Of a stretch of DNA of 64,000 nt, positions 37,199 through 60,841 are shown piece by piece. Numbering within the stretch: the first letter of the stretch is position 1; the number at the start of each line of letters is the position of its first letter. The notes under the pieces were generated by a model that saw only the letters and a program-made list of their open reading frames with translations, was not told the origin of the DNA and made no database searches. Made by a program: the position numbers and the translations under genes. This DNA comes from Chrysoporthe austroafricana (Eukaryota > Ascomycota > Sordariomycetes > Diaporthales > Cryphonectriaceae): assembly GCA_001051155.2 (NCBI GenBank), contig JYIP02000003.1:4898001-4962000 (forward strand). The letters run 5' to 3'.

Positions 37199-38221
37199 GA
37201 TGGTAGAGTGCAGGCACGAGCAGGGCTAGAATTGTCAAGAATGGGTGATCGAAGACAAAGATTGTGCTTAAATTGAAACGATGCCATTTTTTCTTTTGTT
37301 GCTTTAAAAATAGAGAACGACTGAGGTCCACAATACAGGATCTTACGCCACCTAACTTCAGTGTTGCCGAGGCCACCGGGCATTTGTTTGCAGCGCAAAC
37401 TGAGGTGGATGATCTCCAACCGTAGCATGTGTAACCTTGATAAAGTGCACAACCATATGACCACACCGTCAGGTTCCTTCAGTGATTGACTCGTTTCACA
37501 AACTTCATGTCAAGTCCTCTTGGTTCAATGTGCTCGGCAGACATTACCACAAGGGCAATGACGAAGGGCAGAACCAGCCACACGCTCGTTCGACTTAAAT
37601 CTTGAACAGAGCCATTGGAGAGTTGGGAATGAATAGTTGACGTCGATTTTGGCTCGGATGCTTACGTGATCACCAGCAGGGATACTTACGTTATCCCTTG
37701 GAGGGCCTCCTGCATACGTCCGTAACGTCCGTATACCAAAGCAAGCCTGCAGTGCTATCTCGCGTACTCGTGCAGAACCCTGACGAGCTGACGACAGGGG
37801 AGGGGGAGCAGCTACCCCTCCAGGGAGAGCTCCACAAGCTTCGAGAGGTAACTCACCCCATCGAAGCTCTTCTTATCCTGACCCCCGACCTTTGACCTTT
37901 GACCTTTGACCTTCGACCTTCAGCCTTGCCATGACCACCGTCCCCAGCATTTATCTTCCATTGTTACTCATTGATGCGCCCGATTTCACATCAAGGTCAG
38001 GGTCCTCAAACCCTTTCTTCAAGCTTCCCAACCTCCTTTCCAGGTCCCGATCATTTCCACCGGCGAGTCGGTCGCGTTCGATGGTACATGCAACGCTTTG
38101 CTCTCTGAATCCTGACTCCCGTCTTTCTCTCCGCATGCCTGGCCTCGCCCTATGACCTGCTAGACCCTCCGCCACACCTCTCCAGTACCTATTGAAGGCG
38201 GTGGCTTCCTGGCCTGGCAAG
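37199..38221. other. Intergenic, RdRP promoter and leader
   Basis: No supported gene. Contains the heptamer array described separately. The final 300 bases should be the promoter and leader of the polymerase gene. Confidence 0.5.
37887..37921. repeat. Tandem GACCTTT heptamers upstream of RdRP
   Basis: Five head-to-tail heptamers, three GACCTTT followed by two GACCTTC, about 300 bases upstream of the RdRP ATG. Read on the other strand they form spaced AGGTCA-like half-sites. This may be a simple satellite or a transcription-factor array. Confidence 0.85.
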
Positions 38222-41200
38222 ATGGAGGTCCACATGCACGGTCTGCCCGAGTTCCTCCCGGTCGCGGCCCTGAAGAAGCGCCTTGACGACATTATGGCGC
38301 CCTTGGGCATCCCCGAGGATGCTTTCTCTTGCGAGAAGTACAGGAAGTCTAAATGGGCCAACATCACGTTTCGCGAGCACGCGCACGGCAAAGCCTTCCT
38401 CGAGAGGCATGGCGAGCAGCTACTCCCACCCATGGCACACCGATCTGGCCAGCGACCTTTCAACGCCAGCTCTGCCCGAGACTCCGTCAATGGATCGCCT
38501 CGTGGGTCGGCCAATCAATCCACCATCTCTGGCCTCAAATCCGCAGCACGCAATCAGCGGCCTCGTCGTCAGGCTAGATTAACTTTGGCTGGCATCCAAG
38601 TCTTCTGTTCGCTCAGCAAGAATCCTAATGACCCCCAGACCATTGCTGGGTTACCAAACCCCATCACTCTGAAAGCTTTGAAGTACGCTGCCGAGGAGAA
38701 GGAGAACCCCACGCGCAGCATAAAGAAGGAAAGCTCCCCCGAGGTCCTCAATCTTATTTCCCTCAGCTGCGGCCACAACGCCTTCGACGGCGACAAGCTT
38801 GTCTTCATCCCCGAAGTCGAGTATCGGGAGTCTGGAATAGCGAAATTCACCAAACGTACCCTGCTTATCAAGCTCAACAGTCATCACATCATCAAAATCG
38901 CACTCGACACGATCGTCAGCCTCATTTGCAGCTTCGGCCACATTCTGACTTTGACTCTTTCTGAGGAGCCGTCCTTCTTCCACGAGATGAACCAAGCTCC
39001 AGACACAAGTGACATGGGAACACTCCTGAAAGCGATGACGGTCATGTCTTTGAATAGCCAGACCGGTAAGAACGAGCCCACGCGGACCCGCCTCACCAGT
39101 CTAGACGAGAAGCACGCCAAGGTGTTGGGGCAATGTCTTGTCTACCAATTCCAGGTTAGAGGCCCGGACCTGGAAAAACGCATGAAGGTGCTCGAAGGAC
39201 ACGATGTTATTCCCTTCGTGCGCTTCCCACTCACAACGCAGCGAACGCCACCCCTACATCTCCGGGATTCGAGACATGCTATGGAGGTTTTACAGTCTGA
39301 ACTTGCTGCTATTCATCAGGGTAACCATTTGCCCTTTGGGATCCTCTTTCAGTTGCAAGCTCTGGCTTTCAATGCGTATCTCCACCCTGGAGTCGTGCTG
39401 GCGCTCACGCGGGAGCTGCGGCGCCAATTCAAATCAGATCGAGAAGCTGGGAGACGACCAATTTCCGCGGATGCCATGAGAATGTTGTTCAAGGAGATAG
39501 ACTGGCCAAAACCCCATGGAAATCCGTCGCACTTCGAAGTGAGGCCCATCATTTCTCTTCTCAGGAAGAAGGACGCCGAGTCTCGCAGCAATGTTAGCAT
39601 GCGACCAGCACTCTTCACACCTACCCTGAGTTTTGCCTCCATCTACCGGGTCACGGTCACACCTACGAGGATCACCCTACATGGCCCTGAGCTTGAAGCG
39701 AACAACCGAATCCTTCGAAAGTTTCCAAACCACCATGAATATTTCGTTCGCGTACAGTTTTGCGACGAAAATGGTCAGGATCTCTTCTACAGCCCCAGGA
39801 TCAGCCTTGATCCGATCTGGGACAGGTTCAAACATATTTTTAGCACGGGCATCCCGATTGCTGGACGAACATACTATTTCTTGGGATTCTCGCATTCTTC
39901 CTTGAGATCGCACAGCGCGTGGGTGAGTCGTCATATCTAGCCATCCATCCCACTTGATGCTGATCTCTTGGCTAGTTTTCTGCGCCATTCTTTGATGACG
40001 ATGGGAGCCTTCAGACGAATTTCTCGATCATCAAGGCGTTGGGACATTTCACGTCTATCCGTTCTCCAGCCCGGTGCGCTGCTCGTGTTGGCCAAGCCTT
40101 CTCCGAAACTCCGTTCGCAATACCCCTCGATGAGAACGGGATAGAGGTTGTATATATACCAGACGTCAAATCTGCAGATGGTATCCGCGTTTTCAGCGAT
40201 GGTGTTGGCACACTCACCTGGGAGGTAGTCTACAGGATCTGGGACGTCATACCTCAAAAGAAAGCAGCGCCAACGGCATTCCAAGTTCGCTATCGAGGCT
40301 CGAAGGGTATGCTGGCACTGGACAGCACTAGTGATGAGTCCGTTATTGGAATCAGACAGTCCATGGAAAAATTTGAGAGCCAAGACAAAAAGGTTCTTGA
40401 GATCTGTGACATGGCATCCAAGCCGATACCACTCGTTCTCAATCGCCAGATGGTCAAAATACTGGAAGATATGGGCGTCGAGCCGTCCTGGTTTCTCACA
40501 ATGCAGAGCCTGGAGCTGAAGCGGATTAGAGAGGTAGTGGCTGACCCGTACCATGTCGCAGAATTCTTGGAGCACAAGAACATCGCGGAAGGCATCAGGC
40601 TTTCTCGTCTTTTCCGACAAACAGCAAATATGGGAATAGATTGGCGCAAGGATAGCTTCCTGGCCTCGGTAGTACAGGCAGTCGTGCTGCGGGAACTGCG
40701 TCTCCTGAAGCACAAAGCTCGGATCCCTATCGAGAAGGGCATCACTCTCTTCGGTATCATGGATGAAACCGGTTTTCTGAAGGAGAACCAAATTTACATC
40801 ACCTACGATACAAAGGAAGGGCGTTTTGACCCGCCTCCGACCAGAGGCGAGGTGCTTGTCACTCGATCGCCTGCTCTCCACCCAGGTGACATCCAGAAAG
40901 CGCAGGCTGTGGTTCCGCCGAATGGCCACCCACTGCGGGACCACATGAACGTCATCGTTTTCAGTCGCCACGGCAGCCGAGATCTCCCTTCTCAGCTATC
41001 TGGCGGCGATCTAGACGGTGATATCTACAATGTGATTTGGGATGAACGGGCGATGCCCAAGAAGTTCTTTCCTCCGGCAGACTATCCACGGGCGAAACCA
41101 GCGGAGCTCGACCGTGACGTGACCGGGGATGACATGGCCAATTTCTTTGTCGATTTCATAAAGACTGATTACCTTGGTGTCATTGCAACGAGGCATATGA

Positions 41201-42197
41201 TCTTGGCAGACCAGCAAGAGGCCGGGACCAATGATCCAGGTTGTTTGATATTGGCAGCATTACACTCAACGGCCGTTGACTACTCCAAGACAGGTATCTC
41301 TGTGGACCTCAAGGCACTACCAAGGACAAATAAATTTAGACCCGACTTGTGAGTTCCCCTTTGCGACAGGCTGAATACAATGTTGTTCTACCTGTGTCCA
41401 ACGTGAAGCTGATCGGACTTCCATACAGCCTCGCTCCTGGGCCAGACGTTCGCGTCGTGGACAAATCGAATGTTGAACTGGACGATTTCATCCTCGAGTC
41501 CACCACTGATGATGAAGAGGATCAGTACTCTGCCCAACGCCACCGATACTACAAATCTGAGAAGATTCTTGGTCGTTTGTACCGCGCAGTCAATGAGGAA
41601 AAGATTTGGAAAGAGGACGTAAAGTCAAGGATTACGCCTCTAGGCGCCTCTTTCTGGGACGACTTCCTCAACGCCATTCGTCTACGCTATGAATCTGTTG
41701 TTGACCAGCCTGGCGAGTGGATTTCTCGTCTCGAGACTGCCCGGGAGATCCGGGGCTGGTACGAAGATGCCGTATCCAACGCAATGAACCAATATTCAGA
41801 GCATCCTATCAACCCGATTTCAGAGCTTGAGGTGTTTATCGGAAATATTCTCAATAAATCTGGCGTCCAAACCCATCGCCAGAGAGACCACAGCATCAAA
41901 CTCAGGGATGAGTTCGAGCGCATTTGTGATTGGGTCACAAGCCTGCTGCGGAAGGTGTCCCATGACCTAGATGCTCCACTGACGGGTTACGAAACTGAAC
42001 ACGACAGCTTGCATCTGTGTTTTGCCTGTGTTCAGGCAGGTAGTGAAAGGTCAACCAGCCTGAATGGACCGGCCTATGACAACATGCAGAGCTTCAAAGT
42101 TGTGGCGGCTTGTGCTCTATTATCGGAGCTCAAGAAATTCGAGCGTGGACAAAGGGGCGGTGGCTATATCGGCGTAAGGAGTGGCGGCAGGCGCTAA
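38222..42197 (+). CDS. RNA-dependent RNA polymerase of RNA silencing (QDE-1/SAD-1 class)
   Basis: Cell-encoded RNA-dependent RNA polymerase that makes double-stranded RNA for Dicer in quelling or meiotic silencing. Exons 38222-39922, 39976-41348 and 41429-42197 splice in frame to 1280 residues. The start MEVHMHGLPEFLP opens a short RRM-like N-terminal segment. The RdRP domain runs from about residue 540. The catalytic signature SGGDLDGDIYNVIWD has its metal-binding aspartates at 912, 914 and 916. FSDGVGTLTWEV, FQVRYRGSKGML, RGEVLVTRSPALHPGDIQKA and HGSRDLPSQLSGG are further conserved blocks. The acidic TTDDEEDQ stretch and YYKSEKILGRLYRAV toward the C-terminus are common to fungal members. 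All catalytic residues seen are intact. I cannot tell by eye which of the paralogue clades it belongs to. Confidence 0.95.
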
Positions 42198-47454: not shown

Positions 47455-49837
47455 AATAGTGAGGGGTCCGTACCAGACAGGTATGCGAGTAATGAAGAAT
47501 GCCGAGAAGTGCGAGTATACTTTGGTTCGTTCTCCCCTTCACCACAGCAAACGAGGCCGTGACTGTGCAGTGACGGGTAGGTAGTGCGTATCCTCAGCAC
47601 AAGTAGGAATCCACTTTCGAGTGAGAAAAAGGTAGGGTGGGTGTGATCCGGCCAGAAAGGGTGTGCAGAGGTGCTGCCAGAAAAAGGCACGACCCGTAAG
47701 GGATTAATAAGGTGACGTTTTGGCCCGCAAGGATGCAGGATCCAGCATTGAAACGGGCCCCCCAGCAGGCCGGCGTCCCAACCTCTTGGACTCGAGTTCG
47801 CGACTGTCGATCGCGTCGCACGCTACTGGGCAGATCGACGCTTGTGGCGCGCAACTCCAGCCAGTCGGCCGAGCAGGCCCCAGACCAAGCGGCTCGGGTC
47901 AGACGGGGCCTCTGTCGATGGTAAAATAAAGGTGCAGGATCCAGATGCGGCCCAGGGCGCGGCCGGATCTCACGGGTGGCCTGCTAATAAGAGGTGTGTG
48001 TGGCCCGTCTTATGGTATTGCGTAGCCAGAGGCTATACAGCTCGAGAGGAGGGAGGGTGAGCGACGCTGCAACCAGGTTCGGAAGCAGATCTAGGGGTCC
48101 TGCGGCTTTGCTTGTTCGGGTTGTTCGTTGCGGGGTGGTGGGAGGGCGACTGTGGGATCTAGAAGCACCAGGTGGGACTAGTAGTAGATAGAAGTGCAGG
48201 ACGAAGGATCAGCCTGGCGGGCTGGGCTGCCACTACAGCGGTGTATGGACCTTAATAGAGGCGGACGCAGAGGCGGACGCTGAGGCGACACAGCCCTGAC
48301 CTCGAGCAGAGCGGCGTTCTCGATCGTTCCGAGAGGCCTGCGAGGCTCGCAGCACAGCCGCGAGAGGCAGACCGGTAGGGGGCGCAGACAATAGGAGCAT
48401 GACACCTGTCCTGCTGTAGACGTCATCTCGTGGTCGGGTCGCACTGATGTTCACAGCTTACTTCCAGGACCAGATGATGCTGCGACATTGCTGGGGGCCG
48501 CCTGACTTCGACCCTCCGGGGCCGCTGCTGACGGCAACAAACCGGGAGACTGACCGTGGGCATATGACGTCGAGTCGCAGGTGCCCTGGTCCGTCTGAGA
48601 AGGCCTGGGTTGAGTGGAGTCAGTTGCGCCGCCCAGAGGGAGCACATAACGCCCAGATAGTCGCGTGACATAAGCCTCACCGTCTTCTCCTTCATTCTAG
48701 TGGCGCGCCGGCCTTCCCCTTCTCGATCGCCGGGCCTGACCTGCCCCATATCATGTGATCGTCGCCGACAGCTTGTCAACCAGCGCGCTGCAGAACCGTC
48801 CACGACCGCTTCGCCCCTCTTCATCGGCCTGGCATGTCTCGCCTTGCCAAGGCAGCGGGGAGAAACATGTAGCGACGCGGAAGACGGCGGGAGGAACGCA
48901 CGGCCAATGAACAGCAGTGATCCGCCCTGCCGCCCCAAGCAAAATGGAGTCATGACTTCATCTGCTCAGTATTATCTGGGAGAGCCAGCCGGATACCTCC
49001 CAACCACTTCCTCCCTGCCATCGTGGACTCGCATTGGGGAGCGGTGTCGTCCACCAAGTCCCCAGAGAGAGCGCGCGCGAAACCAAGACCCCAGCGCTGG
49101 GACGGGCGCCCCCTGTACCGGGTCTTCTTCGGGTCGAGGCAGATCATGCAGCAGGACCTGGCACCTAGACAACGGCGAGGCTCATGGCACGTATGTTGTT
49201 TCTAGCCGTGTTTTGACTAGGCGCTGCAATGCGGTGTACGCGCCGCACCCGAACAGTCCGGCGTCGACCTCTACGGACAGCAGTATCCCCTCTTCCTACC
49301 CAGCATGCGCATCTCCTTCAGAGGATCCCTCGGTTTCGAGCCGCGAGTCTATGACGTCCTAGCGAATGGGTGTCGACGTCGGTAGTGTGCTGTGCGGCGG
49401 TCAACGATGCAGATGGCCTTCCTCCACAGAGCCAAAAGGCCAGTCATGGCGTTGAGCTTTGGGGTGCTGATAGTGGTGGACTCTGTGATTCGTGCGTGGC
49501 TCTGTCCTACCCTCCCTCGGTCTTGAGACTGCGACGGCTCTGCTGCTGCCCACGCTGGCGGGCTGGGCGCTATTCCGTGCTATGTGAGGATGGGCCTGGT
49601 CAGGAGACAGGCGTGCTTGTGTCTCGGTACAGGCTTGGTGGGTAAGGCTTGACGTCGCTAGTGCGATGCCAGCGCCTGGCCTCAGACACATCACACAGGC
49701 AGGGCTGTTAATTCAGCTCCCGGGAGTTGGCCTTCAAAGGTACATACATCGTGTAGTTATTGAGACCCTTGGATCTTTAGTCAGATATGCGAGCTGCTAA
49801 GACGGGTATGGCCGCCAGATGAAAGACCCGCCTGCTG
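47455..49837. other. 2.4 kb GC-rich intergenic stretch
   Basis: No supported gene. Several long open frames (for example 48700-49362 on the plus strand) arise from high GC, lack domains and overlap equally long frames on the other strand, so I do not call them. The right end faces the 3' end of the O-methyltransferase. Confidence 0.45.
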
Positions 49838-51265
49838 TCACTTCTGAGGGTTGCCCTTCCATTCGGCCTCCATTATCCACAAGCCCGACCCTGGCGGCTG
49901 TTTCCCCCCTTTGAAGAGGAAGCCCGCATCAGCCTCCTCGAAGATCCTGGCCCATTCGGTCATTTCGCGATCACCTGAGTTGAACAGCACATTCATACTA
50001 ATGATACCGCTTCGCATGGCCCCCTCCTGTTGCTTTGGCACCTTGTCTGGCTCCGGAATGACGACATCGTCAAGGATAATCTTGGCGCCGGGCTTGAGCG
50101 CCGGGATGAGGTTCCGCAAGATGCGCACGGCATACTTGTCGGACCAGTTGTGGAAGATGGCGCGGAAGAAGTAGACATCAGCACCACGCACGGGCTGCTC
50201 CGTCAGGAAATCATGGACAGTATACTGGACGCGGTCGGCGACATCCGCCGGTCGTTGTCTCTCGGCTTCCTTGATGACAGCCTCGTCAAGGTCCTGCACG
50301 CTGTCAGCTCTTCAGGTCACTTCTAGGATCTCTCCAGGCATGGCGCAACGTAAAGTCGGCAGACAGACCTGGACGACGAATTTCAAGGACGGAAACTCGC
50401 GGGCAATAGCACAGGAGATAGCACCATGGGAGCCGCCGACATCGACAACGGTCGCCCCCTCAGGGAGCTCGCCCCAGGGATAACCGTGGACGACATGGTG
50501 AGGCTCGAGGCCAGGTCGGCGGGAGAAGAATCTCATCATGTCCGCAAACCGCTGCAGACTGCCTGGATGTTTAGACAGGTAGTTCCACATGCCTTCCCCG
50601 CCGTGGCCCAGTGCAAACCCCGTCTCATCTGGCTCACCCGAGTCGGGCCACTTTGCCATGGCCTCGCAGGTGTTGTACGCGCCGGCCCAGCCCTCCTCCG
50701 TCTTCCACGCCATCCACTGGTGGAGCAGCTGGTCTTCGGCCAGCAGGCGCGACGCCGCCGTGTGCACGACGACGCCCGGGCGGATCTCGCGGAAGAGGTG
50801 TTGCGACATGGCCAACCGCAGAAGCCTTCGCATGTGCGTCTCACCAATCCCGGCTCCGGCGGCGAGCTGAGCAAACGTCACCTCGCCGCCCACAGGAACG
50901 GCCTGAGCCAAGCCAAAGCGAGTTATGCCTTGAATACCAACCAGATCGGTGGCCTATAAGCCTGTCAGATACGGGTCAAGTGTCCTCCTTTCCTGATGTC
51001 TTCATGGGGACGATATGCTTACACTGAAGGCAGACAGATACTGGCTCGGGCCCTGCATCAGGATACGCAGCTCCTGGCAGTCGTAGATGACTGCCTGGCG
51101 CGCGGCTTCGATGTCAGGCTCCGTGTGGGGAGGGACCAACGACCTCAGGGGGCCAGTGTGATCAAACGAGGGCACGGGAAGGCTGTTGTCAAGGTAATAT
51201 TTCTTGACCTTTTCCGTGTTCGCTGCGATGCGGGCCGCTAGCTCGGCGATATCTGATGTCGACAT
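49838..51265 (-). CDS. SAM-dependent O-methyltransferase (COMT-type)
   Basis: Transfers a methyl group from SAM to a hydroxyl of a small molecule; the class is common in mycotoxin and polyketide pathways. Exons 51265-51023, 50953-50369 and 50293-49838 give 427 residues, all introns phase 0. The N-terminal part is helical (about 1-100). A winged-helix dimerisation domain follows (VTFAQLAAGAGIGETHMRRL). The SAM loop is VVDVGGSHGAISCAIA at about 250-265. The catalytic base is likely His324 in FFRAIFHNWSD, and PGAKIILDDVVIPE is the next conserved block. It lies on the same strand as, and 578 bases downstream of, the UstYa-like gene, and its upstream region carries one copy of the cluster motif. 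I infer tailoring of the cluster product; a stand-alone role is possible. Confidence 0.92.
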
Positions 51266-51843
51266 TGTTGAGGAGGTGCTGCTGCAGCTAAGGACAGCAC
51301 CACAGATGACGAAGACGAGGCTGGGGAAGTGAGAGAGATGAAGATATCGTGGAGTTGAAGTCCTGGGGGCGCAATGGAGAGAAGTATTTATTAAACGGCA
51401 CTGCAGAGAGAGCGAAGCAGCAGGTCAGTGGTCCCAGTACGGACGTAGTGAGTGAAGGGCCTTCTAGCAGGTAAGCACTGACGCTATCAGCTTGCTCCGT
51501 CAGGTACTACCTCCAGGTACTACCCCCTGTGGGAGACAGGTCAGCTCAGGCCGGCGGGCACTGGTAGCTGCCTATTCGGTAGGTAGTAGTAACACAAGGT
51601 GGGGGAGGGGCACATAAGTACCCAGTACCAACTGCAGGTGCATGTACATGCGGCGGCCCCTTGGTATTGCATTTGTAATATTGGGTCTATACTACATTCT
51701 CAGCCTAACCCGCACTGCCTGTGATGGGGGCCAAAATACTTCTGGAAGATGCCTCTCGACCCTGGGCACACTCTTGGGAGTCTCCACCTCTACAGCAAGG
51801 GACATTCCTGCGTATTTTCTCAGAGATGCGAACATGGCACTTC
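51266..51843. promoter_or_regulatory. O-methyltransferase upstream region
   Basis: Sequence between the methyltransferase start (minus strand) and the 3' end of the UstYa-like gene. On the minus strand a TAATAAATA stretch near 51390 could be the TATA element, about 120 bases before the ATG. One cluster-motif copy lies at 51724. Confidence 0.55.
51724..51733 (+). promoter_or_regulatory. Cluster motif, one-mismatch copy (ATGGGGGCCA)
   Basis: Nine of ten bases match TTGGGGGCCA, followed by AAAA as in two of the other copies. About 460 bases upstream of the O-methyltransferase ATG. Confidence 0.5.
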
Positions 51844-52988
51844 TCATCTACCTGTGGTTGTGGCCAGATCCGCCTCCGGAACGAGCACGCTCCTGTTGAA
51901 CAGATCCACATGCCGCGAAACGGCCCACGCCTGCAGCTTATCCCACTTCACGCAGCGATGTAGAGGATCGTGCTCCAGTGGGCTGGGCCCCAGGGTTACG
52001 TTCTCGTCGTCAGGGCTGTGCAGCCAGTGATATGGCAGCACGGTGATGTCGGCGTGGCAGAGGGACGATTTGCGCAGCGACTCGATGCAGTGCTCTACGG
52101 AGGGGGGTGAGGTCGTCAGCAATGGGCCCAGCAGGTTTGCGCAGCGGTTCCGACTGTACCTGTGTGTTCTCGTTGGATCGAGTGTTGTTTCTCGGTGAGA
52201 TTCGCAAAGTAGTAGTCTTTGAAGAACCATTGGCGTAACAATTTCTGTTCCAAAGCGTCAGCCTGTAATCGGTAAACAAGCCGGAACGAACGGAGTTGAT
52301 GACATACAACGCAGTGAAGCTCATGATAGACGGCCAGAGCGCCCACGTATCCCGAACCGTCGCTCAGGCGTAATGAGGTTGCTCCGACGCGTTCCATCTC
52401 GGAAGCAGAGATTCTCATGTTCATGCCTAGACACGGGATAATATTGGTCAGTGAACATCCATACACAAGCATGGCGCTGGCAAGACGAAAACTGACCTCG
52501 CATCATCTCGTCCCAGGCGGCTTCCGTCTCCGCGGAGGGCTCGCCGACGAAACTGCCCCGGTCCACGAAGGCATCCAGGCGTCGGTCTTCCCATTCAACA
52601 ATGTCCCTGGCGGGTGCTTGGTTTCAAACCATATCAGCAAACACGTATTTGTCCTGTGCTGTAGTATTCCACGTAGAAGCTAGGAGCATGAAAACTTACA
52701 CCATGGGCCATCCGCACATGAGCAAGGGTGTCGAGCGAGGCTGGCAGTGACGGCGAGCACGAAGAGGCACACGTTGAAGGTCAAGAAAACCAAATTTATG
52801 AACCAGAAAGCGCGGGACGGACGGCGACCTCCAAGCGATGTTTCGACTCTGCTGTCTGTAATTTTTGATGCGTCTTGCTTCTCTGCTGGCTCATCTTCGG
52901 TACCCTGCTCTCCTTGCGCATTCAGTAAAGGATGTGACTCGATATCAAATTCAGAATTGCGTGGGTTCTCATCCGGTCTGTATGCCAT
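51844..52988 (-). CDS. UstYa-family (DUF3328) oxidase/cyclase, copy 1
   Basis: UstYa proteins carry out oxidative cyclisation and other oxidations of fungal ribosomal peptides (ustiloxin, asperipin, phomopsin) and of some other metabolites. Exons 52988-52700, 52616-52497, 52426-52308, 52244-52160 and 52094-51844 splice in frame to 287 residues. A cytosolic acidic tail precedes one membrane helix (about 61-83, FWFINLVFLTFNVCLFVLAV). SPARDIVEWEDRR begins the conserved luminal domain. Both diagnostic HxxHC motifs are intact: HELHC at 171-175 and HTEHC at 203-207, followed by IESLRKSSLCHAD. The C-terminal extension after DITVLPYHW is about 60 residues. It is divergent with the seven-helix protein, and its promoter holds the cluster motif. 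Confidence 0.93.
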
Positions 52989-53689
52989 GATGCGTTGGTA
53001 GACAAGGATTTTGAGATGATATTTCTAGAACCGATATCCGTCGAAAGAGACTCGATAGGAAAATGGCCTTTGAAAGATAGAGCTGGTATACCGGGGCGTG
53101 CTGGGACAATTTCAAGCCGTATAGCCCCTAGCATAACCTGCACAGTATGAACAACTCCTCGCACGTCCATATCCCTGGCGAGAGAAAAGGCGTGGGAAGG
53201 ATAGTTCATGGTAAAGTCACCTTTGTGTAAACTATTGCGCGCGAACACGATAGCGAATGGAATCGAGAGAATTTGGAACACGAGATAAGAATTTTGGGGG
53301 CCAGTACCGGGGGGCTAGTGCGGCTTGTCGTGACGATGTAACCTTTCGCAGTCATGCAGCAGTAGTCTTTCCGTTCGAACGCATTAGGACTGTAAGGCAG
53401 AAACGTGTGATTGCACCTCACAGATCCTTCAGCTCGAATTTCAGCCACACCAAAGAATCCCACTGGCCGTGCCTCGCTTACTGCCCTCCAGCTACTCATT
53501 TGTGGTCGTTGCCCTCAGGATTTTCCATAGCTTGGGTTCCACGACAGACCATCCGAATTGAGTCCAGCGTCACGCGCTCTGTAATAATATAGCACAGGCC
53601 TTCCCCTACAGTCCCCTCACGATTTTCTGTCGTGTCTTATAGCTAGCCGACGAGTCTCTAGCCTGTTAAGCAACATTTGAACTTGTACC
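52989..53689. promoter_or_regulatory. Divergent promoter, UstYa copy 1 / seven-helix protein
   Basis: Seven hundred bases between two divergent starts, with no gene inside. It contains one exact cluster motif at 53294, roughly centred (about 305 bases from one ATG and 385 from the other), so it could serve both genes. Confidence 0.6.
53294..53303 (+). promoter_or_regulatory. Cluster motif TTGGGGGCCA
   Basis: Exact ten-base copy, preceded by TT and followed by GTACC. See the divergent promoter at 57404-58245 for three further copies. Confidence 0.6.
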
Positions 53690-55207
53690 ATGGCGCTTTC
53701 AATCGGCACAAACGTTGTGATCATCTCTGTTGTGTTCTCTGTTCTTGCCATATTGTCTGTTCTCCTGCGTTTCCACGTACGGCTTACACAGCGCATCCCG
53801 TTCAGCATTGATGACTACACCATTATACCTGGACTGGTAGGCCCTTCGCCTTTCATTCTTCTTTTGCGTTGAAGGACTCCATATTCTCGGGATCTACTTG
53901 GTTAACTCACATGGCTCGTCATCAAGATACTCACCGTGGGAGTCGGCGTGGCCAACTGCGTCAGTATGTATCCATCTCTTGCTACTTACGCCGAGAATTG
54001 CCATACGCCATCTATGGTTTCTTACAATTGGGAATGGCACAGGTGCTATTGCGGGCGATCTTGGAGTTCACATAAAATTAAACGAGAAGGGAGCTCCAGA
54101 GTACAATGGACGAACGGTCATCTTCATGAAGGTATGAGCCGAGACACGTCTTGAGATGTGCGACGAGCACCGCACAACGATGCTAAAGAGCCCTGCAGTG
54201 TCTGTTCTGCACCACGCTTTTGTCGACTCCTGCATTAGCCTTTACGAAGTGCTCGATTGTTTTCTTCTACCGCCGCATCTTCCGCGGGGCCAAGTTCAAC
54301 GTCATTACCATCTTGCTCATTATCTTCATCGCCCTATGGGGCCTGGCCATGTTCCTCGGTAACATCCTCACCTGTCGGCCAATCTCGGGAAATTGGGAGG
54401 CCTTCACCGCTGCACCCACTGAGGGCGGCAAAAAGGCGAAGTGCTTCAACCCAGTACCGAAATACTATACCTCCGCCGTTTGCGACCTTTTTGCGGATAT
54501 CATCATATTCATCATTCCCCAGCCCCTAGTATGGAGGCTTCAGATGCCAACGAGTAGGAAGGTAGCCGTGAGCGCCATCTTCGTAGTCGGAGCATTGTAA
54601 GTCTCCCCGCCCCATCATCGCTGAAGGCCAACTGCGTGCGTTGCTCTGGTCCGTGACGAGTCGACTGAAATTTGAATCAACAGTGTCCTTGGGATCAGTG
54701 CTGCCAAGATCTCCTTCTTTGTCAAAGCCGGGCGCGAGTCCAGCCGTAGCTACGACGTGACTTGTGAGTGATCGTTTAACCTTGGGCATACCCAGAATCT
54801 TTCCACTTAACTAATCCTCCTGTGCAGACGACCAAGCGCCGACTCTATACTGGACCCAGCTCGAATGTGCCATCGCGGTGATTTGCGCTTGCCTACCCAC
54901 TCTACGGATCACGGCGATGAACCTTACTGTCGAGAGGCTACGCAGCTACGCTAGCAAGCTCTCGCTGCGCAACAGGAGCACCAGGAAGAGCAAGGCCTCG
55001 TCTGAACGTAGTCTACCGCGCTGGGATGGAGATATTCCCGGGAAACAAGCGAGCGCCACATCCTTTCCCCCACCTACGGAGTATAGGGTTGAGGCAGTAC
55101 CGCTACAGCAGATCGGTAACGATCGGCAGCAGCCGCCGCATCATGCCGATGGCTCTGGGATTGTTGTGCAGAAAGATGTTTACCAACAGCGTGAGAATGC
55201 TGTTTGA
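53690..55207 (+). CDS. Seven-helix membrane protein of the fungal rhodopsin-domain/Pth11-related type
   Basis: Integral membrane protein of the large fungal family often annotated as rhodopsin domain-containing. Some members act as surface or nutrient sensors (Pth11), but most are uncharacterised. Exons 53690-53836, 53927-53963, 54043-54131, 54199-54596, 54684-54763 and 54828-55207 give 376 residues. Helix 1 is VVIISVVFSVLAILSVLLRF. The family block RIPFSIDDYTIIPG follows. FTKCSIVFFYRRIF, GNILTCRPISGNWE, CDLFADIIIFIIPQPLVW and ECAIAVICACLPTLRI are typical later segments. There is no CFEM domain. The tail of about 100 residues is Ser/Arg-rich and cytosolic. Its position inside the UstYa block, with a shared promoter, suggests co-expression; a role in export or sensing of the product is only inferred. 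Confidence 0.88.
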
Positions 55208-57162
55208 GGTAGCATACACCGTGCCTTTGTCTCAAGCTTGTAAATTACTTTTGATTGCCGTAAATCGTTCCGAGGGGCCTTGGTGGGCGGCCTCTGAGCA
55301 AGGATATGACACTCCAAGGCTATCTAGATACTTACTACGTAGCCAGGTTTAGCCAAACTCTTGATAAACTGTTGTTAAATACTATCCCAGGTTGGACGGC
55401 TCTTCTCACGAGACTTCTGATAATTCTTTACAAGCAGCTGAGAACTTGCGTGTTCGCATATTCGGAAGGACCAGGGACTCGCAGGGAGCGTGTCGCTCGT
55501 TGCATAGCTGAACAATCCCTGAATTTGTGTCAGCTTCGGACGAACTGTTCAACCATGCCACCATTTCACGGCCCGCTACCTCTCCGCTTACCCGCCGCCA
55601 ACTATGCAGACCTGCTGACCTTTGTGCCCTATGAAGCGAACCTATTGGATGAACCGCTCTTGTCCACCCTGGGATTAGGCACCCTCCTGAGGCTGCATCA
55701 TCCCGTAAGCTCCGGCTCGAAGCGCACAGTTGGCTCATATTCGACCTTCGTCCGGCATATCCTTGGCACCCATAAATACTCTGTAGCGTGGCCAATATAA
55801 GGCACTTTGTACCTGGATAGCCATTTATCACTTTCCATGTGAGAATGATCTGCGCTTATCGTGGTGCAGTGTCCCATTGCCGTCTGCTACCCAACGATGC
55901 CATCTGCTATACAAACATTGCTTCAGCTAGGCTCATTGCTTCTACAAGTTTCGAACTTTCCGAGCTAGAAGATTGTGTGTTATTGCCACTTTGAGCAGCT
56001 CCGGCGCAGGTATGGATCCCAGTGTGCAGAAGGATTGATGGTAACAGTGACTAGCCGGGGCTCGGATTATTTGCATGCTTGCGGGCGCAAAAATTGCGAG
56101 CGAGACCACCACATTCCTTTCAAAGCTTAGTACATTTAGACTTTGACGTTTCCCTGAAGGATGTAAATCCGGGCTTCGTGCATAGGCTGTGACCAATAGG
56201 AGCGTTGCATAACACAAAGCATGTCACGAGCTGCGGACTTGTGGTGTGTTTTACGGACGGCGGCCGCGTGCAGGTGTCATCATGCCACACGTTTTCTCTG
56301 CTTGACCGTACAAGCTTTCGACGGCCCGAATTGACTACCCCGGTAGTTGCCACATACCACCGTCAAAGCGATCCGTAGTAGTGTACGACCACGCCAGGTG
56401 GCGGAGCATAAGCATTGATCTTTGCGCGTGAATAAATGCCTGTGTGAACTCCCAAAAAAGTAAGCTGAAGATCTTTTGAGGGCCCATGTAAAGGTTGTGG
56501 TCCTGTTCCCAGCTACCAATGATTTGCCAGAAAGCTACGGTATCCTTGATGTTACCCAATCTATCGAGGTACAGCGCTGAACTTTGTGAACTCTGTTGAA
56601 ACGGGCTGGCTGTTTACGCATGTCCGTTGAGTGTTCATTTCCTCTCTTGGGGGACGGGACTCTTTGTCGTCATAGTCAATCCTTCGGCGCTGTCGACCTC
56701 GGCAGCCGTGCAATATCGGAGCCAAGCTACCCTGCCCGTCTTATGGACCTTTAGGCTGTCAGACTTTTCACGCATGGTGTTTTAACTGCGCCATGAGACA
56801 TTTGACGTAGACTTTTCTGCAGCTTGCTGTTCTGACACTTAATAGTACATACAACATACTGAGACTGGAGGAAGTACAGTAGGTGGGGAACTAGCCTGAC
56901 TGAGTGCTTCGAGACCACCTAGGTATTACGTACGATGGGCGCCGCTTGTCACACCAAGATGAATGCATACGTAGAAAATCATTTCATTTCTCGGCCAAGT
57001 AATGACTGCCTAGGAACACCTGCGCGCACTCAAGTAGGAAAGTCCATAGAGAAGCACTCGACACATCAGTCTCACCCTGAAGACCATCACATCCTGTTCT
57101 TGATAACCTGTCCGCTTCTACCCGACCTATGTGTCTGAATGGGCTCTCTCGATGTGCATGAA
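55208..57162. other. Intergenic inside the cluster, 2 kb
   Basis: No gene that I can support. The longest minus frame (about 56650-56335) carries the protein-like phrase DTVAFWQIIGSWEQDHNLYM but has no upstream ATG and no domain. The 164-codon plus frame at 55306 looks like chance. No second precursor-like peptide was found here. Confidence 0.45.
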
Positions 57163-57403
57163 CTAGGAGTCATCCTCGATGGTCCACGTTGCATAGACCA
57201 GAGAGTCATCCTCCGCCCGTGGAGCCTTGATGTCTGCATCGGCTCCGGGCTCTGTCATTAACACTCAGACTAAGTCTTCTCATAAAAAGGTTTGACCGAC
57301 CAAAGGCGCGGTCTTAGGGTGATGCACACTTACGGGGAGTGGGAACTGCCGCTACACAGCTGATAGCTGCCATGATGGCAATGAGGAAGGTCGTGGAGTG
57401 CAT
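57163..57403 (-). CDS. Candidate RiPP precursor peptide (52 aa, secreted, one intron)
   Basis: Two exons, 57403-57334 and 57251-57163, with donor GTAAGT and acceptor GACAG, encode 52 residues. Residues 1-19 are a classic signal peptide (MHSTTFLIAIMAAISCVAA), followed by VPTPQPGADADIKAPR. The C-terminus is AEDDSLVYATWTIEDDS, where the sequence EDDS occurs on both sides of the hydrophobic-aromatic octapeptide LVYATWTI. The repeat is also visible in the DNA (GAGGATGACTC twice). There is no KR dibasic repeat, so it differs from multi-core dikaritin precursors. It lies between two UstYa genes, divergent from the second and convergent with the seven-helix gene. A TATA box sits about 135 bases upstream and three cluster motifs are in its promoter. 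Alternative: a small secreted effector unrelated to the UstYa genes. No other part of the sequence shows the peptide being modified. Confidence 0.65.
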
Positions 57404-57535
57404 TCTGAGAGTTTAGAAGCGGATTCTGGCTTGTAATGCGGTTTTCGAAGTTATGCTGATCCTCTAGATAGACATCTAGGCTCTTGGAGGTGTGGATGAA
57501 ACCAGAGGAGAGGTAGGCGGCGGCTCGAGCCCCAT

Positions 57536-57541
57536 TTTATA
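57536..57541 (-). promoter_or_regulatory. TATA box of the precursor peptide gene
   Basis: TATAAA on the minus strand within CAGTCTATAAAATGGGG, about 135 bases before the ATG, leaving room for a leader of about 100 bases. Position and sequence are canonical. Confidence 0.6.
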
Positions 57542-57784
57542 GACTGCCAACAGCGCCGTCGCACCCGAGGTCGCCTTACAAGGCGTCTCGACGAACACCT
57601 GGCGAACAAGATCGATACGACCATCTTGTGAACACTCGAGCAAGATGACGATACGTGGTATTGAGCATTCATTTGGCGACACGGGTGGATGGAACCTGCC
57701 CAGGTCGGCTCCGGATGTGCGCTCGCTTCAATGCTCGTACTGCATACCAGTCACATCTTGGCGACTATTCCTGATCGTCCCTCT

Positions 57785-57812
57785 TTGGGGGCCAGAGACC
57801 TTTGGCCCCCAA
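57785..57812. promoter_or_regulatory. Inverted pair of the cluster motif
   Basis: TTGGGGGCCA at 57785-57794 and its exact reverse complement TGGCCCCCAA at 57803-57812, separated by eight bases. A perfect ten-base inverted repeat fits a dimeric regulator, as zinc-cluster (Zn2Cys6) activators of fungal clusters often are. It could also form a stem-loop, but single copies elsewhere argue for a protein-binding site. Confidence 0.65.
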
Positions 57813-57978
57813 CCAGTGAAACCTCGCAAAATATGCCCATATAAAGCTCATGGCACTAGCACGACCTGTCTACATATCCTGCCTTCTTTCGGATTGCTAT
57901 TGGATGGAACATAGGCTGATCCTCATGTCAGTCATCCCGCGGTTCTAACTATGCTCGGCAGTCCATTAAAGTTGCTTT

Positions 57979-57988
57979 TGGCCCCCAA
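57979..57988 (-). promoter_or_regulatory. Cluster motif, single reverse copy
   Basis: TGGCCCCCAA on the plus strand, that is TTGGGGGCCA on the minus strand, followed by AAAA in that orientation. About 260 bases upstream of the UstYa copy 2 start. Confidence 0.6.
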
Positions 57989-58245
57989 GAAGGATTATGT
58001 CGACGACCGTGTCTCGTTGAGGGTTTGCACTTTGTTGCTCTGCGCCCGTCCAGCGTGGCAACGTCAGCGAACAGTCGGACATCCGTCATTGGGTAACAAA
58101 ACTCCATGCTGCGCCTCTCAGTAATTACTTCATAGCCTACTCAGACGTGCAAGGGCCAATGTAGGCAGTAACTATTACATTCTTCCGCGGGGTTGCTGCT
58201 AGAGTCCCATTACGCTGTTGCTCACACATCATTTCGACCAGCACA

Positions 58246-59195
58246 ATGGCGTATCAGACCAAATATCATCGGATTGGCGCGAGCGATGCTGTCAGTCACG
58301 ACTCGAGGTCAGTCGTCGACTCGCATCGCAATTGTTTTTGCAGTCCATCTGCGATACATCGTACTGGATCAACGAGATTCAGTCTTGGCACTCTCATTAC
58401 GGTGACCATCATCGTGGCACTATTCTCTGGCACCGCCTGCTTTGCCTTTGGGAGACAGGGGCAGATATCGCGACAGATGGACGCGGAATGGATGTGTAGG
58501 GATCCTTCCGATCTGGCTCCAGGGCCTTGTGACAGTTGCTCTAACAGCCTTGAATGCGTCTAGCACCCCCAGGAGCACTGAGCACCACGTTCGAGTACCA
58601 GAAGGTGTTTGCCTTGAGATCTTCCAACGAGACCCAAAGACAATGGGCTGCCCTGTTCCCGCGTAAGCTGTGTGAATTCAAAGACATAAGACATGATGGT
58701 CTCTTGAGCATGCGATCATCAGACTGCACCGCATCTAACGGTAGTAACTTGTCTTTTAGTGGGCGGCGGCTTTGTACAGCATCCTACCCTCTCTCCTGAG
58801 ATGACCAGTCTCGCCGTCTATCACCAGCTCCACTGTCTGGTAAGCTATTGCCCTCCTCGCGGCCGGGGCCGACGAAGTGCTGTACGGCACGGTTGCATGA
58901 TCGGATATTCTCCCGCTGACGCTGGTGAGCTCTCCAGGACGCAATCCGGGCGTCCTACTGGGCCGCAATTGACGGCACCCAGGCCGATCATCACACCAGG
59001 GCTCCGCATGTCCGCCACTGCATCGACTACCTGCGCCAATCGCTCCTCTGCCATGCAGACGCAAACTTCGAACCCGTCAAGAAGGAGCTTGGCGGCGTGA
59101 CCGGGTTCGGGTCCCAGAGGAAGTGCAGGGATATCACGCAGCTGAGAGCTTGGGCGGAAGAGTGGAGGGCGAGTGATCATTTCAACGGCAATTGA
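58246..59195 (+). CDS. UstYa-family (DUF3328) oxidase/cyclase, copy 2
   Basis: Second UstYa-type protein, 228 residues, from exons 58246-58495, 58564-58662, 58760-58839 and 58938-59195. A short cytosolic tail (MAYQTKYHRIGASDAVSHDS, the usual start of this family) is followed by one membrane helix (about 47-68, LGTLITVTIIVALFSGTACF). The luminal domain begins at about residue 80 with SPPGALSTTFEYQKVFAL. MTSLAVYHQLHCL holds the first HxxHC motif (His138-Cys142). HVRHCIDYLRQSLLCHADAN holds the second (His167-Cys171). The C-terminus is shorter than in copy 1 (WAEEWRASDHFNGN). Sequence differences show the pair is not a recent duplication. Pairs of UstYa proteins acting on one peptide are known from ustiloxin (UstYa and UstYb), which supports a joint role here. 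Confidence 0.93.
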
Positions 59196-60841
59196 ACGGC
59201 CGACCCTCAGTCTGTCGATGTTGTTATCCTTCAGATTGACGTGCCGCCGTGCCATGGTGTTTCATATTAGAAGCAGAAATTGATGCTTCATGAATTCCAC
59301 GAAGCTGCTGAGCTGACGCTTAGGGAAGGTCCCTTGAAAAAGGCAAGAGTTGCTGATGATGCCGTTGGTAGAATTCTGCTGTATGCATGAACAGCCGGGC
59401 TTGTGTCAGTTCACATCCCTAGCCGCGTCGAGTCCTGCCTTGAGGACCTCCTAGGCTCTCAACTTTCAGTAATTGAGATAGGCGACATGCGAAAGCGCGT
59501 GTAAATGCATATGCCTGCCCTGCTGTATTTACCAGTGCATACTCCCTCGAGTTCAAGCTTGATGCCTTGAAGCCATTCTAGTGAGAGAGAATACCTTGGG
59601 CACGGGAGTAGGTAGGGGATGAGATGAAAATTATGGACTCATGAGTGAGTATTTCGGCAGGTTCCGATACCCTGTGTAGCACATCGTTGGAGGCTGCATG
59701 TGCAGTCTACCTGTGTAAAGAATCGGTTGTCGACGAGGGTCTGTGACCGTGATTGTCACAAGTAGTTACTCTCGTGTAGTGCTCGGCTGATCAACTGCAA
59801 GCTCAGTGGTCTCCCTATCTGAGGGTCTATTGTTTTCCGAGAAAGTTTAGACGCAGACCAGCTTCGTCCACATCCAGAGGCGCAGTGGCATGCGCCGTCG
59901 ACTGCATTTCCGCTTCCCACTTGTTCCGATACACGATCATACCCATAACCACGCCTCCCCAAGGTCTCCGGACCGAGTCGAATAATTAGTCAAACGAATA
60001 ATTGACCATAGCCAAGCCAAGACGGAAAAAATGCATCTGGGCTGTGTCGGCTCGTAAAGAGTGTCGTAAGAGTCGGTCTAGTTCCGGGCGGGCACAGACC
60101 ACCAAATTTGGCTTTGCCTCGACCGCCTTTTCTGCTCTCGAGGCGTAGCAATCCTCAATTAAGCTCACCACAGCCTAATTGCGAAGGGAGCCCTTCCATC
60201 TCCCCGGCTTCGCAGGCGGATCGAGGTGTGGAAGCGCGACCCGGCTCGGCGTCGGCCAGCAGACGCCTTCTGACGCCCTCTCTGTGGTGTTGAGGCCTAG
60301 GGTAGCCACGTGACTAGGACCCCTTATTAACGATCGTTATTTCAGGGGTCTCCTTTTCCCAAAGGGGGGGCTGAGGGGGGTGGGACTCTCCGGCATGACA
60401 CGTATCAGAAACAGGAGCGCTGGACCACTCGGGCGCAGTGCCGCAGACCCCCCCAAGTGAGCTTAGCCCAGCGGCTCAGGCGAGGCGGGGGTCTGGACCT
60501 CCACCCTCTGTGCATAGCTAGCAGCAGGGCAGCCCGTCACTACAGCAGCTAACTAACTCCCTACTGCGCCCGCGCCTCACCTCAGCTCCCCTCACCACCG
60601 TCGACCCACGGGAACAGGACGACCACGATCATTTAACGGGGACAGGAGAGCGCGCCGGCGACAGCTGCGAGGAAAATTGAATAATAAGGCAGCCTCTCGT
60701 TCCACATACATACCACGCTCCCCGGCCCAGCTCACTCTCATTCTTGACTTACAACCCCCCGCAACGGCAGCGAGGAGTCCACCCACGACCACCCATATAT
60801 TTAGAGCCAACCCACACAGACACACAACGCCATAAGCCAGG
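59196..60841. other. Intergenic, right edge of the cluster
   Basis: About 1.6 kb, no supported gene. It lacks the cluster motif, so the block appears to end here. The stretch from 60300 is rich in G and C runs and leads into the promoter of the SEC-C gene. Confidence 0.5.

Follow-up and report, generated by a model that had tools for sequence, protein, structure and literature searches.

Does a compact group of five genes in the fungus Chrysoporthe austroafricana encode a pathway for a ribosomally synthesized and post-translationally modified peptide (RiPP), and is the small secreted peptide encoded among them its precursor? The group lies at 49838-59195 of a window of 64,000 nucleotides, the whole stretch of DNA analyzed here, which carries fungal introns and gene families and corresponds to positions 4898001-4962000 of contig C16 in a genome of 48.15 Mb in 22 contigs; C1, C12, C18 and the like denote contigs of the same genome. 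It comprises an O-methyltransferase, two UstYa (DUF3328) proteins, a seven-helix membrane protein of family PF20684 and a secreted peptide of 52 amino acids. We consider it probable, at about 0.62, that these genes constitute a co-regulated UstYa-type RiPP pathway with a minimal precursor that is free of Kex2 sites. For the proposal of the initial annotation that the five genes belong to a single pathway there is now better support than its author could know: we read them as a unit because a promoter motif is confined, within the window, to the cluster and because the same combination of genes recurs at two other loci. The role of the peptide as precursor is likely but unproven, and the product of the pathway is unproven.

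A window-exclusive promoter motif and a recurring gene combination

Spliced models of all five genes have GT..AG introns and zero internal stops, and gene models and Pfam matches agree with the initial annotation, which had placed five genes here with both HxxHC motifs in each UstYa protein (Table 1). Three promoter intervals among these genes have a 9-mer in common, TGGGGGCCA, which occurs in five copies in the window, all of them within the three intervals, with none outside 51266-59195; three of the five lie in the divergent promoter of the peptide and UstYa2 genes. The motif came from an open k-mer search, and the control therefore counts any 9-mer. Presence of a 9-mer in each of the three intervals, at five copies or more in total, was seen in 0 of 1000 dinucleotide shuffles and in 1 of 1000 triples of real sequence, while presence at any count was seen in 20 of 1000 shuffles and 35 of 1000 real triples; the control with real triples omits 9-mers made of two letters or fewer. 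Other fetched loci, 260,500 bases in all, contain four copies of TGGGGGCCA.

At a tolerance of one mismatch the window contains 8 matches to the 10-mer TTGGGGGCCA, against 4.18 expected, so only its exact form stands out. The exact form occurs at 144 sites genome-wide, compared with 43 for the reversed pattern, and among the matches listed (95 on C1-C17, with 44 of the 144 sites outside the listing) no 10-kb stretch other than the five-gene cluster has more than two sites. Among the same listed matches, TTGGGGGCCA lies within 8 kb of 4 of the 20 other UstYa loci on C1-C17 (1.03 expected, P 0.021, post hoc) and within 5 kb of three (0.67 expected, P 0.031, post hoc). Sites near other UstYa loci are found at C1:6063745, C17:1189045, C17:1789186 and C2:70889. 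A regulator common to UstYa clusters is possibly behind these sites, and co-regulation of the five genes would be consistent with the placement of the motif.

Genome-wide, 50 UstYa matches merge into 29 loci. A family-2 O-methyltransferase gene (PF00891) lies within 8 kb of three of these loci (0.22 genes expected) and a PF20684 gene within 8 kb of six (1.3 expected). Both are present at three of the 29, namely the window, C1:6055-6065k and C18:170-184k, each of which carries at least two UstYa matches; 0 of 20000 random placements reach three, in a model that ignores contig ends and the general clustering of secondary-metabolite genes and in a test that was prompted by the window locus and counts it among the three. 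The PF20684 positions used are those of 128 genes, transcribed manually from the rows listed for the 160 matches, with second exons dropped and unlisted matches excluded.

The best paralogue of UstYa1 is the UstYa1-like gene at C1 (102.8 bits), with the next, on C12, at 50.9 bits. For UstYa2, the C1 UstYa2-like gene scores 53.2 bits as a single match, second to a gene at C18 (68.9), and moves to first place when the scores of its two exon matches are added. The C1 methyltransferase was considered as the closest paralogue of the O-methyltransferase and rejected, with genes at C16:5092k and C21:2686k scoring higher and one at C12:2874k being more alike (up to 58%).

The encoded proteins and their surroundings

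Both UstYa proteins exceed the Pfam cut-off of 25 bits for PF11807 and carry the HxxHC(x)nHxxHC arrangement of the DUF3328/UstYa family, to which they belong. UstYa1 scores 159.6 bits, as measured on a model of 293 amino acids whose splice acceptor was then moved by alignment with relatives to give 287. It has an N-terminal hydrophobic helix, the motifs HELHC171 and HTEHC203 and additional Cys residues at 217 and 252; its second motif is interrupted by an intron and is whole only in the spliced form. UstYa2 scores 85.4 bits and has HQLHC138 and HVRHC167, with additional Cys residues at 181 and 206 that fall in invariant columns when it is aligned with 24 of the 25 relatives that a word-based protein search returned. 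Seventeen of these 25 relatives come from fungi that we place in Xylariales.

The same kind of search returned 3 relatives of UstYa1 among 1699 candidates. Hypoxylon rubiginosum is the sole organism named for relatives of both proteins, and its UstYa pair is probably clustered, since the two are listed with a common contig of 68142 bases and carry the identifiers 250328 and 250332. An ustiloxin-like RiPP cluster, possibly this UstYa pair, is described for this species in a survey of Hypoxylaceae (PMC8403587). A structure model of the UstYa2 relative P0003 would place the HxxHC motifs on helices 143-163 and 173-188 (mean predicted local distance difference test score, pLDDT, 70; predicted template modeling score 0.51), and a fold search with it gave 15 matches, the best with an E of 2.8. 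The model of a UstYa1 relative was unusable (pLDDT 38.6), and there were no PDB relatives for UstYa1.

The O-methyltransferase matches PF00891 at 80.7 bits and contains VDVGGSHG, presumably the S-adenosylmethionine motif, and FHNWSD, which we take to hold the catalytic-type His. The membrane protein matches PF20684, a fungal rhodopsin domain, at 184.9 bits and shows seven hydrophobic peaks. None of the five proteins of the cluster has a Pfam match to a transporter or peptidase domain.

Table 1. Coordinates of the five genes, the intervals between them, the promoter motif copies and the C18 locus (window positions unless a contig is given)
Feature	Position	Strand	Details
O-methyltransferase, family 2 (PF00891)	49838..51265	-	exons 51023-51265, 50369-50953, 49838-50293; 427 amino acids
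Interval upstream of O-methyltransferase, downstream of UstYa1	51266..51843		578 nucleotides
TGGGGGCCA copy	51725		interval upstream of O-methyltransferase
UstYa1 (PF11807)	51844..52988	-	exons 52700-52988, 52497-52616, 52308-52426, 52160-52244, 51844-52094; 287 amino acids
Divergent promoter, UstYa1/membrane protein	52989..53689		701 nucleotides
TTGGGGGCCA copy	53294		UstYa1/membrane protein divergent promoter
Seven-helix membrane protein (PF20684)	53690..55207	+	exons 53690-53836, 53927-53963, 54043-54131, 54199-54596, 54684-54763, 54828-55207; 376 amino acids
Candidate precursor peptide	57163..57403	-	exons 57334-57403, 57163-57251; 52 amino acids
Divergent promoter, peptide/UstYa2	57404..58245		842 nucleotides
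TTGGGGGCCA copies	57785, 57803, 57979		peptide/UstYa2 divergent promoter
UstYa2 (PF11807)	58246..59195	+	exons 58246-58495, 58564-58662, 58760-58839, 58938-59195; 228 amino acids
C18 locus	C18:170456-184161		UstYa pair, PF00891, several PF20684 matches

The absence of a non-ribosomal peptide synthetase, polyketide synthase or terpene synthase, which the initial annotation had asserted, is borne out among the 33 flanking open reading frames (ORFs) scanned in the window and 48 kb downstream, none of which has such a domain; one is a short-chain dehydrogenase that also matches the KR model. These 33 fall short of a full annotation, since 121 kb contain 62 coding-like ORFs when the cluster exons are counted. 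A genome search placed no AMP-binding domain near the cluster, with 14 of 94 candidates scored; for ketosynthase and terpene-synthase domains the negatives rest on the flanking ORFs, no genome search having been made for them. The window has no Rfam match. An RNA-dependent RNA polymerase gene (PF05183, RNAi-type by family) at 38156-41349, upstream of the five genes, is probably unrelated to them.

Other UstYa loci of this genome differ in content. At C16:257-262k three UstYa matches stand beside a classical Kex2-repeat precursor (C16:262829-263209) with three KR-CSYN(W/R)I-KR units, and together they look like a conventional dikaritin cluster. This KR-CSYNWI-KR precursor beside other UstYa genes suggests that ribosomal peptides serve as UstYa substrates in this fungus. 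The UstYa gene at C16:42892-44324, with a tyrosinase (PF00264) some 600 bases away, is an ustiloxin-like candidate with no clear precursor. C4:575530-581985 holds an unusually dense array of six UstYa matches within 6.5 kb, and near another UstYa gene, at C20:1889537-1889817 (minus strand), lies a possible acidic precursor, a small ORF for a secreted peptide whose long tail is rich in DS/D.

The candidate precursor and its alternatives

The peptide consists of a hydrophobic signal segment (signal score 12.2 on a crude in-house scorer), a short acidic region and a tail with the layout EDDS-LVYATWTI-EDDS, which places a Tyr within the single candidate core. The EDDS flank tetrapeptide is the only part that repeats; repeated cores are absent. 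Its sole Pfam match, at 17.9 bits, is a weak one to PF12393 on the signal segment and falls short of the cut-off (25). Read in frame, the peptide has a codon score of 8.2 bits, and none of the five other frames exceeds 0.4; a larger training set gives 12.6 when the stop codon is excluded and 5.3 when it is counted. A TATAAAA box lies 138 nucleotides upstream of the ATG. A scan for small secreted ORFs, set to accept 35-140 amino acids, no more than one intron, signal scores from 7 upward and codon scores from 4 upward, finds the peptide alone in 49000-60500. The scan returned 38 matches, at least one of them counted twice, over 324,500 bases of partly overlapping fetched sequence, and several of these resemble, by eye, pieces of larger membrane proteins; it recovered the Kex2-repeat precursor at C16:262829-263209, which serves as a positive control. 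The peptide has no paralogue in its own genome.

At C1 a signal-peptide gene with a short, acidic and Tyr-rich product lies between the UstYa pair and the nearer methyltransferase, divergent from the UstYa1-like gene at a distance of 522 nucleotides; the peptide genes of the window and of C1 are thus each transcribed divergently from a UstYa gene. The C1 model with the best codon score, in which the second intron was placed by eye, encodes 59 amino acids with the units FVYPD, AITYPD and YVIYPD amid acidic residues. An enumerator that requires a branch-point-like motif kept the second intron and chose a later first acceptor, giving 49 amino acids without FVYPD; the codon scores are 19.5 for the longer model and 15.4 for the enumerator model. 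The C1 and window peptides are alike in size, in acidity and in having no dibasic sites, and the longer C1 model has the hexamer DDSxVY, whose identity to the window peptide at 5 of 6 positions (reached in 641 of 20000 double shuffles) is suggestive. The C1 peptide also has no paralogue in the genome. A further link was sought in the phase-1 intron that follows the signal peptide (first exon of 70 nucleotides in the window and 67 at C1) and was given no weight, because two other secreted-peptide candidates near UstYa genes have the same feature (79 and 73 nucleotides).

Several observations weigh against a RiPP pathway with this precursor. The peptide contains no KR, RR or KK, one PR preceding the first EDDS, and a protein search returned no homologue and no candidate with three common 5-residue words, a negative that carries little weight for a gene of 52 amino acids. 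The local alignment of the C1 and window peptides is no better than that of shuffles (6294 and 3832 of 20000 reach it), and DDSxVY depends on a C1 splice acceptor that the enumerator did not keep; given this alignment and the shuffle count for the hexamer, we claim a parallel architecture of the two peptides and not a proven homology. The closest paralogues of the O-methyltransferase are not at C1. No tyrosinase is nearby, all 18 PF00264 matches of the genome lying away from the window, nor is an S41 peptidase, the single PF03572 match of the genome being on a different contig. Within the limits of the word-based search, none of the organisms named for UstYa2 except H. rubiginosum has a relative of UstYa1, which counts against regular retention of the two together. 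Finally, at C18 a relaxed scan and a manual start at 185219 (minus strand) gave no convincing precursor. That locus, which keeps the UstYa pair, the methyltransferase and the membrane protein, resembles the case that the initial annotation had named as speaking against its proposal, a UstYa pair kept without the peptide gene. The identification of the peptide as the precursor stands on circumstantial grounds, namely the divergent promoter with three of the five motif copies, the Tyr and Trp between EDDS flanks and the comparable peptide at C1, and is unproven. A separate ORF at C18, 178197-178760, resembles by eye a secreted esterase.

Three other explanations compete with this reading. The substrates of family-2 O-methyltransferases are usually small phenolics, and the four larger genes might tailor a non-ribosomal small molecule made elsewhere, the peptide being an unrelated secreted protein in a common promoter region. 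Proteins with DUF3328 are able to hydroxylate or halogenate inert C-H bonds, including those in the cyclic peptide cyclochlorotine (PMC12435403), and the presence of the enzymes at C18, where no peptide was found, fits this account as well. We regard it as unlikely, though the strongest of the alternatives, given the core-synthase and AMP-binding negatives with the scopes stated above, the concentration of motif copies in the peptide/UstYa2 promoter and the comparable peptide at C1.

A RiPP pathway whose true precursor is unannotated or distant, with the 52-residue peptide acting as a co-regulated secreted effector or signal, would accommodate the lack of KR-bounded repeats. Moreover, a precursor need not adjoin its enzymes, the mean distance between DUF3328 genes and the genes of Kex2-repeat precursors being 3.09 genes (PMC7329392). 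Against this, no second small secreted ORF in 49000-60500 passes a scan that does recover a classical precursor at another UstYa locus, and we judge this account quite improbable. Still less credence goes to a chance neighborhood of genes that are not one functional unit; PF20684 (160 matches) and UstYa (50 matches) are large families in this genome, but neither the exclusivity of the motif within the window nor the result of the random placements would be expected from chance. The co-regulated RiPP pathway with the 52-residue precursor is the reading that we prefer.

Known systems and a proposed route

The initial annotation likened the cluster to those of ustiloxin, asperipin-2a and phomopsin, the dikaritins. 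It resembles them in its DUF3328 proteins with two HxxHC motifs, a candidate precursor with a signal peptide, a Tyr in the candidate core and a methyltransferase. In contrast to the dikaritins, there is a single core without dibasic Kex2 sites or core repeats, there is no tyrosinase and no S41 peptidase, and a PF20684 membrane protein is present; the methyltransferase of the ustiloxin system is an N-methyltransferase, whereas here it is a family-2 O-methyltransferase. Because the peptide lacks the KR-bounded repeats of ustiloxin- and asperipin-type precursors, the analogy is looser than stated.

The cyclochlorotine hydroxylase CctR is unlike the present system in acting on cyclochlorotine, a non-ribosomal peptide, without a ribosomal precursor. 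It is described as a membrane-bound DUF3328 enzyme with binuclear copper, a dimer in which the HxxHC pair forms the copper site, and it is like the UstYa proteins in having a transmembrane helix, HxxHC(x)nHxxHC and two further C-terminal Cys residues (PMC12435403). The latter, C190 and C213, form the inter-monomer disulfides that hold the dimer (PMC12435403), and by position they may be equivalent to residues 217 and 252 of UstYa1 and 181 and 206 of UstYa2.

By a recent definition in which DUF3328 is the class-defining enzyme (PMC12048977), the cluster is dikaritin-like; it falls outside the older five-gene definition quoted in the same paper, as repeated cores, tyrosinase and transporter/peptidase are missing. 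The Kex2-processed repeat proteins (KEPs) are comparable in having a secreted precursor beside DUF3328 genes and a Tyr in the core, but are defined by repeats between Kex2 sites (PMC7329392), of which there are none here. Lacking dibasic sites and repeated cores in its peptide, the cluster is not a classical dikaritin or KEP precursor system. The nearest published arrangement that we found is lichen RiPP Clan R1, in which two DUF3328 genes likewise accompany an O-methyltransferase, no repeated core was found and the authors allow for a single-core precursor (PMC12048977). The clan differs in having a tyrosinase and an FGE-sulfatase and in that its precursor was not identified, and the passages describing it do not mention PF20684 (PMC12048977). 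According to that 2025 paper, no dikaritin cluster had been described with an O-methyltransferase until the lichen clan, which makes the presence of one at all three of our loci of interest. No description of a single-core UstYa precursor free of Kex2 sites was found among titles and abstract openings of the open-licence literature, searched with general terms.

We propose the following route, in what would be the order of its steps. The peptide would enter the secretory pathway and meet UstYa1 and UstYa2 in the lumen, where both proteins, anchored through an N-terminal helix, would expose their HxxHC pairs. Using copper and oxygen, they would oxidize the LVYATWTI core at Tyr (or Trp), most likely yielding an ether or C-C cross-link at Tyr, with the acidic EDDS flanks serving as recognition and spacer sequence. 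As the peptide has no dibasic site, these flanks would be trimmed by general proteases encoded outside the cluster. The O-methyltransferase may cap a phenolic or other hydroxyl, and our guess is that the seven-helix protein senses the product or aids its export.

More tentatively, and at somewhat less than even odds, the loci may represent a distinct subclass of UstYa RiPPs that combines a UstYa pair, a family-2 O-methyltransferase and PF20684 with short, acid-flanked precursors free of Kex2 sites; such precursors would take two forms, a single LVYATWTI core in the window and several xxYPD units at C1. Some UstYa clusters lack a recognized precursor because mining seeks signal peptides with KR-bounded repeats. 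If the subclass is real, its precursors would escape such mining, which could explain UstYa clusters with a 'missing' precursor, for example those of the lichen clans. The promoter motif would offer a way to delimit clusters of this kind without expression data, and, if the peptide is the substrate, the locus would provide an actual example of a different precursor pattern, together with a minimal system of five genes in which to study UstYa chemistry.

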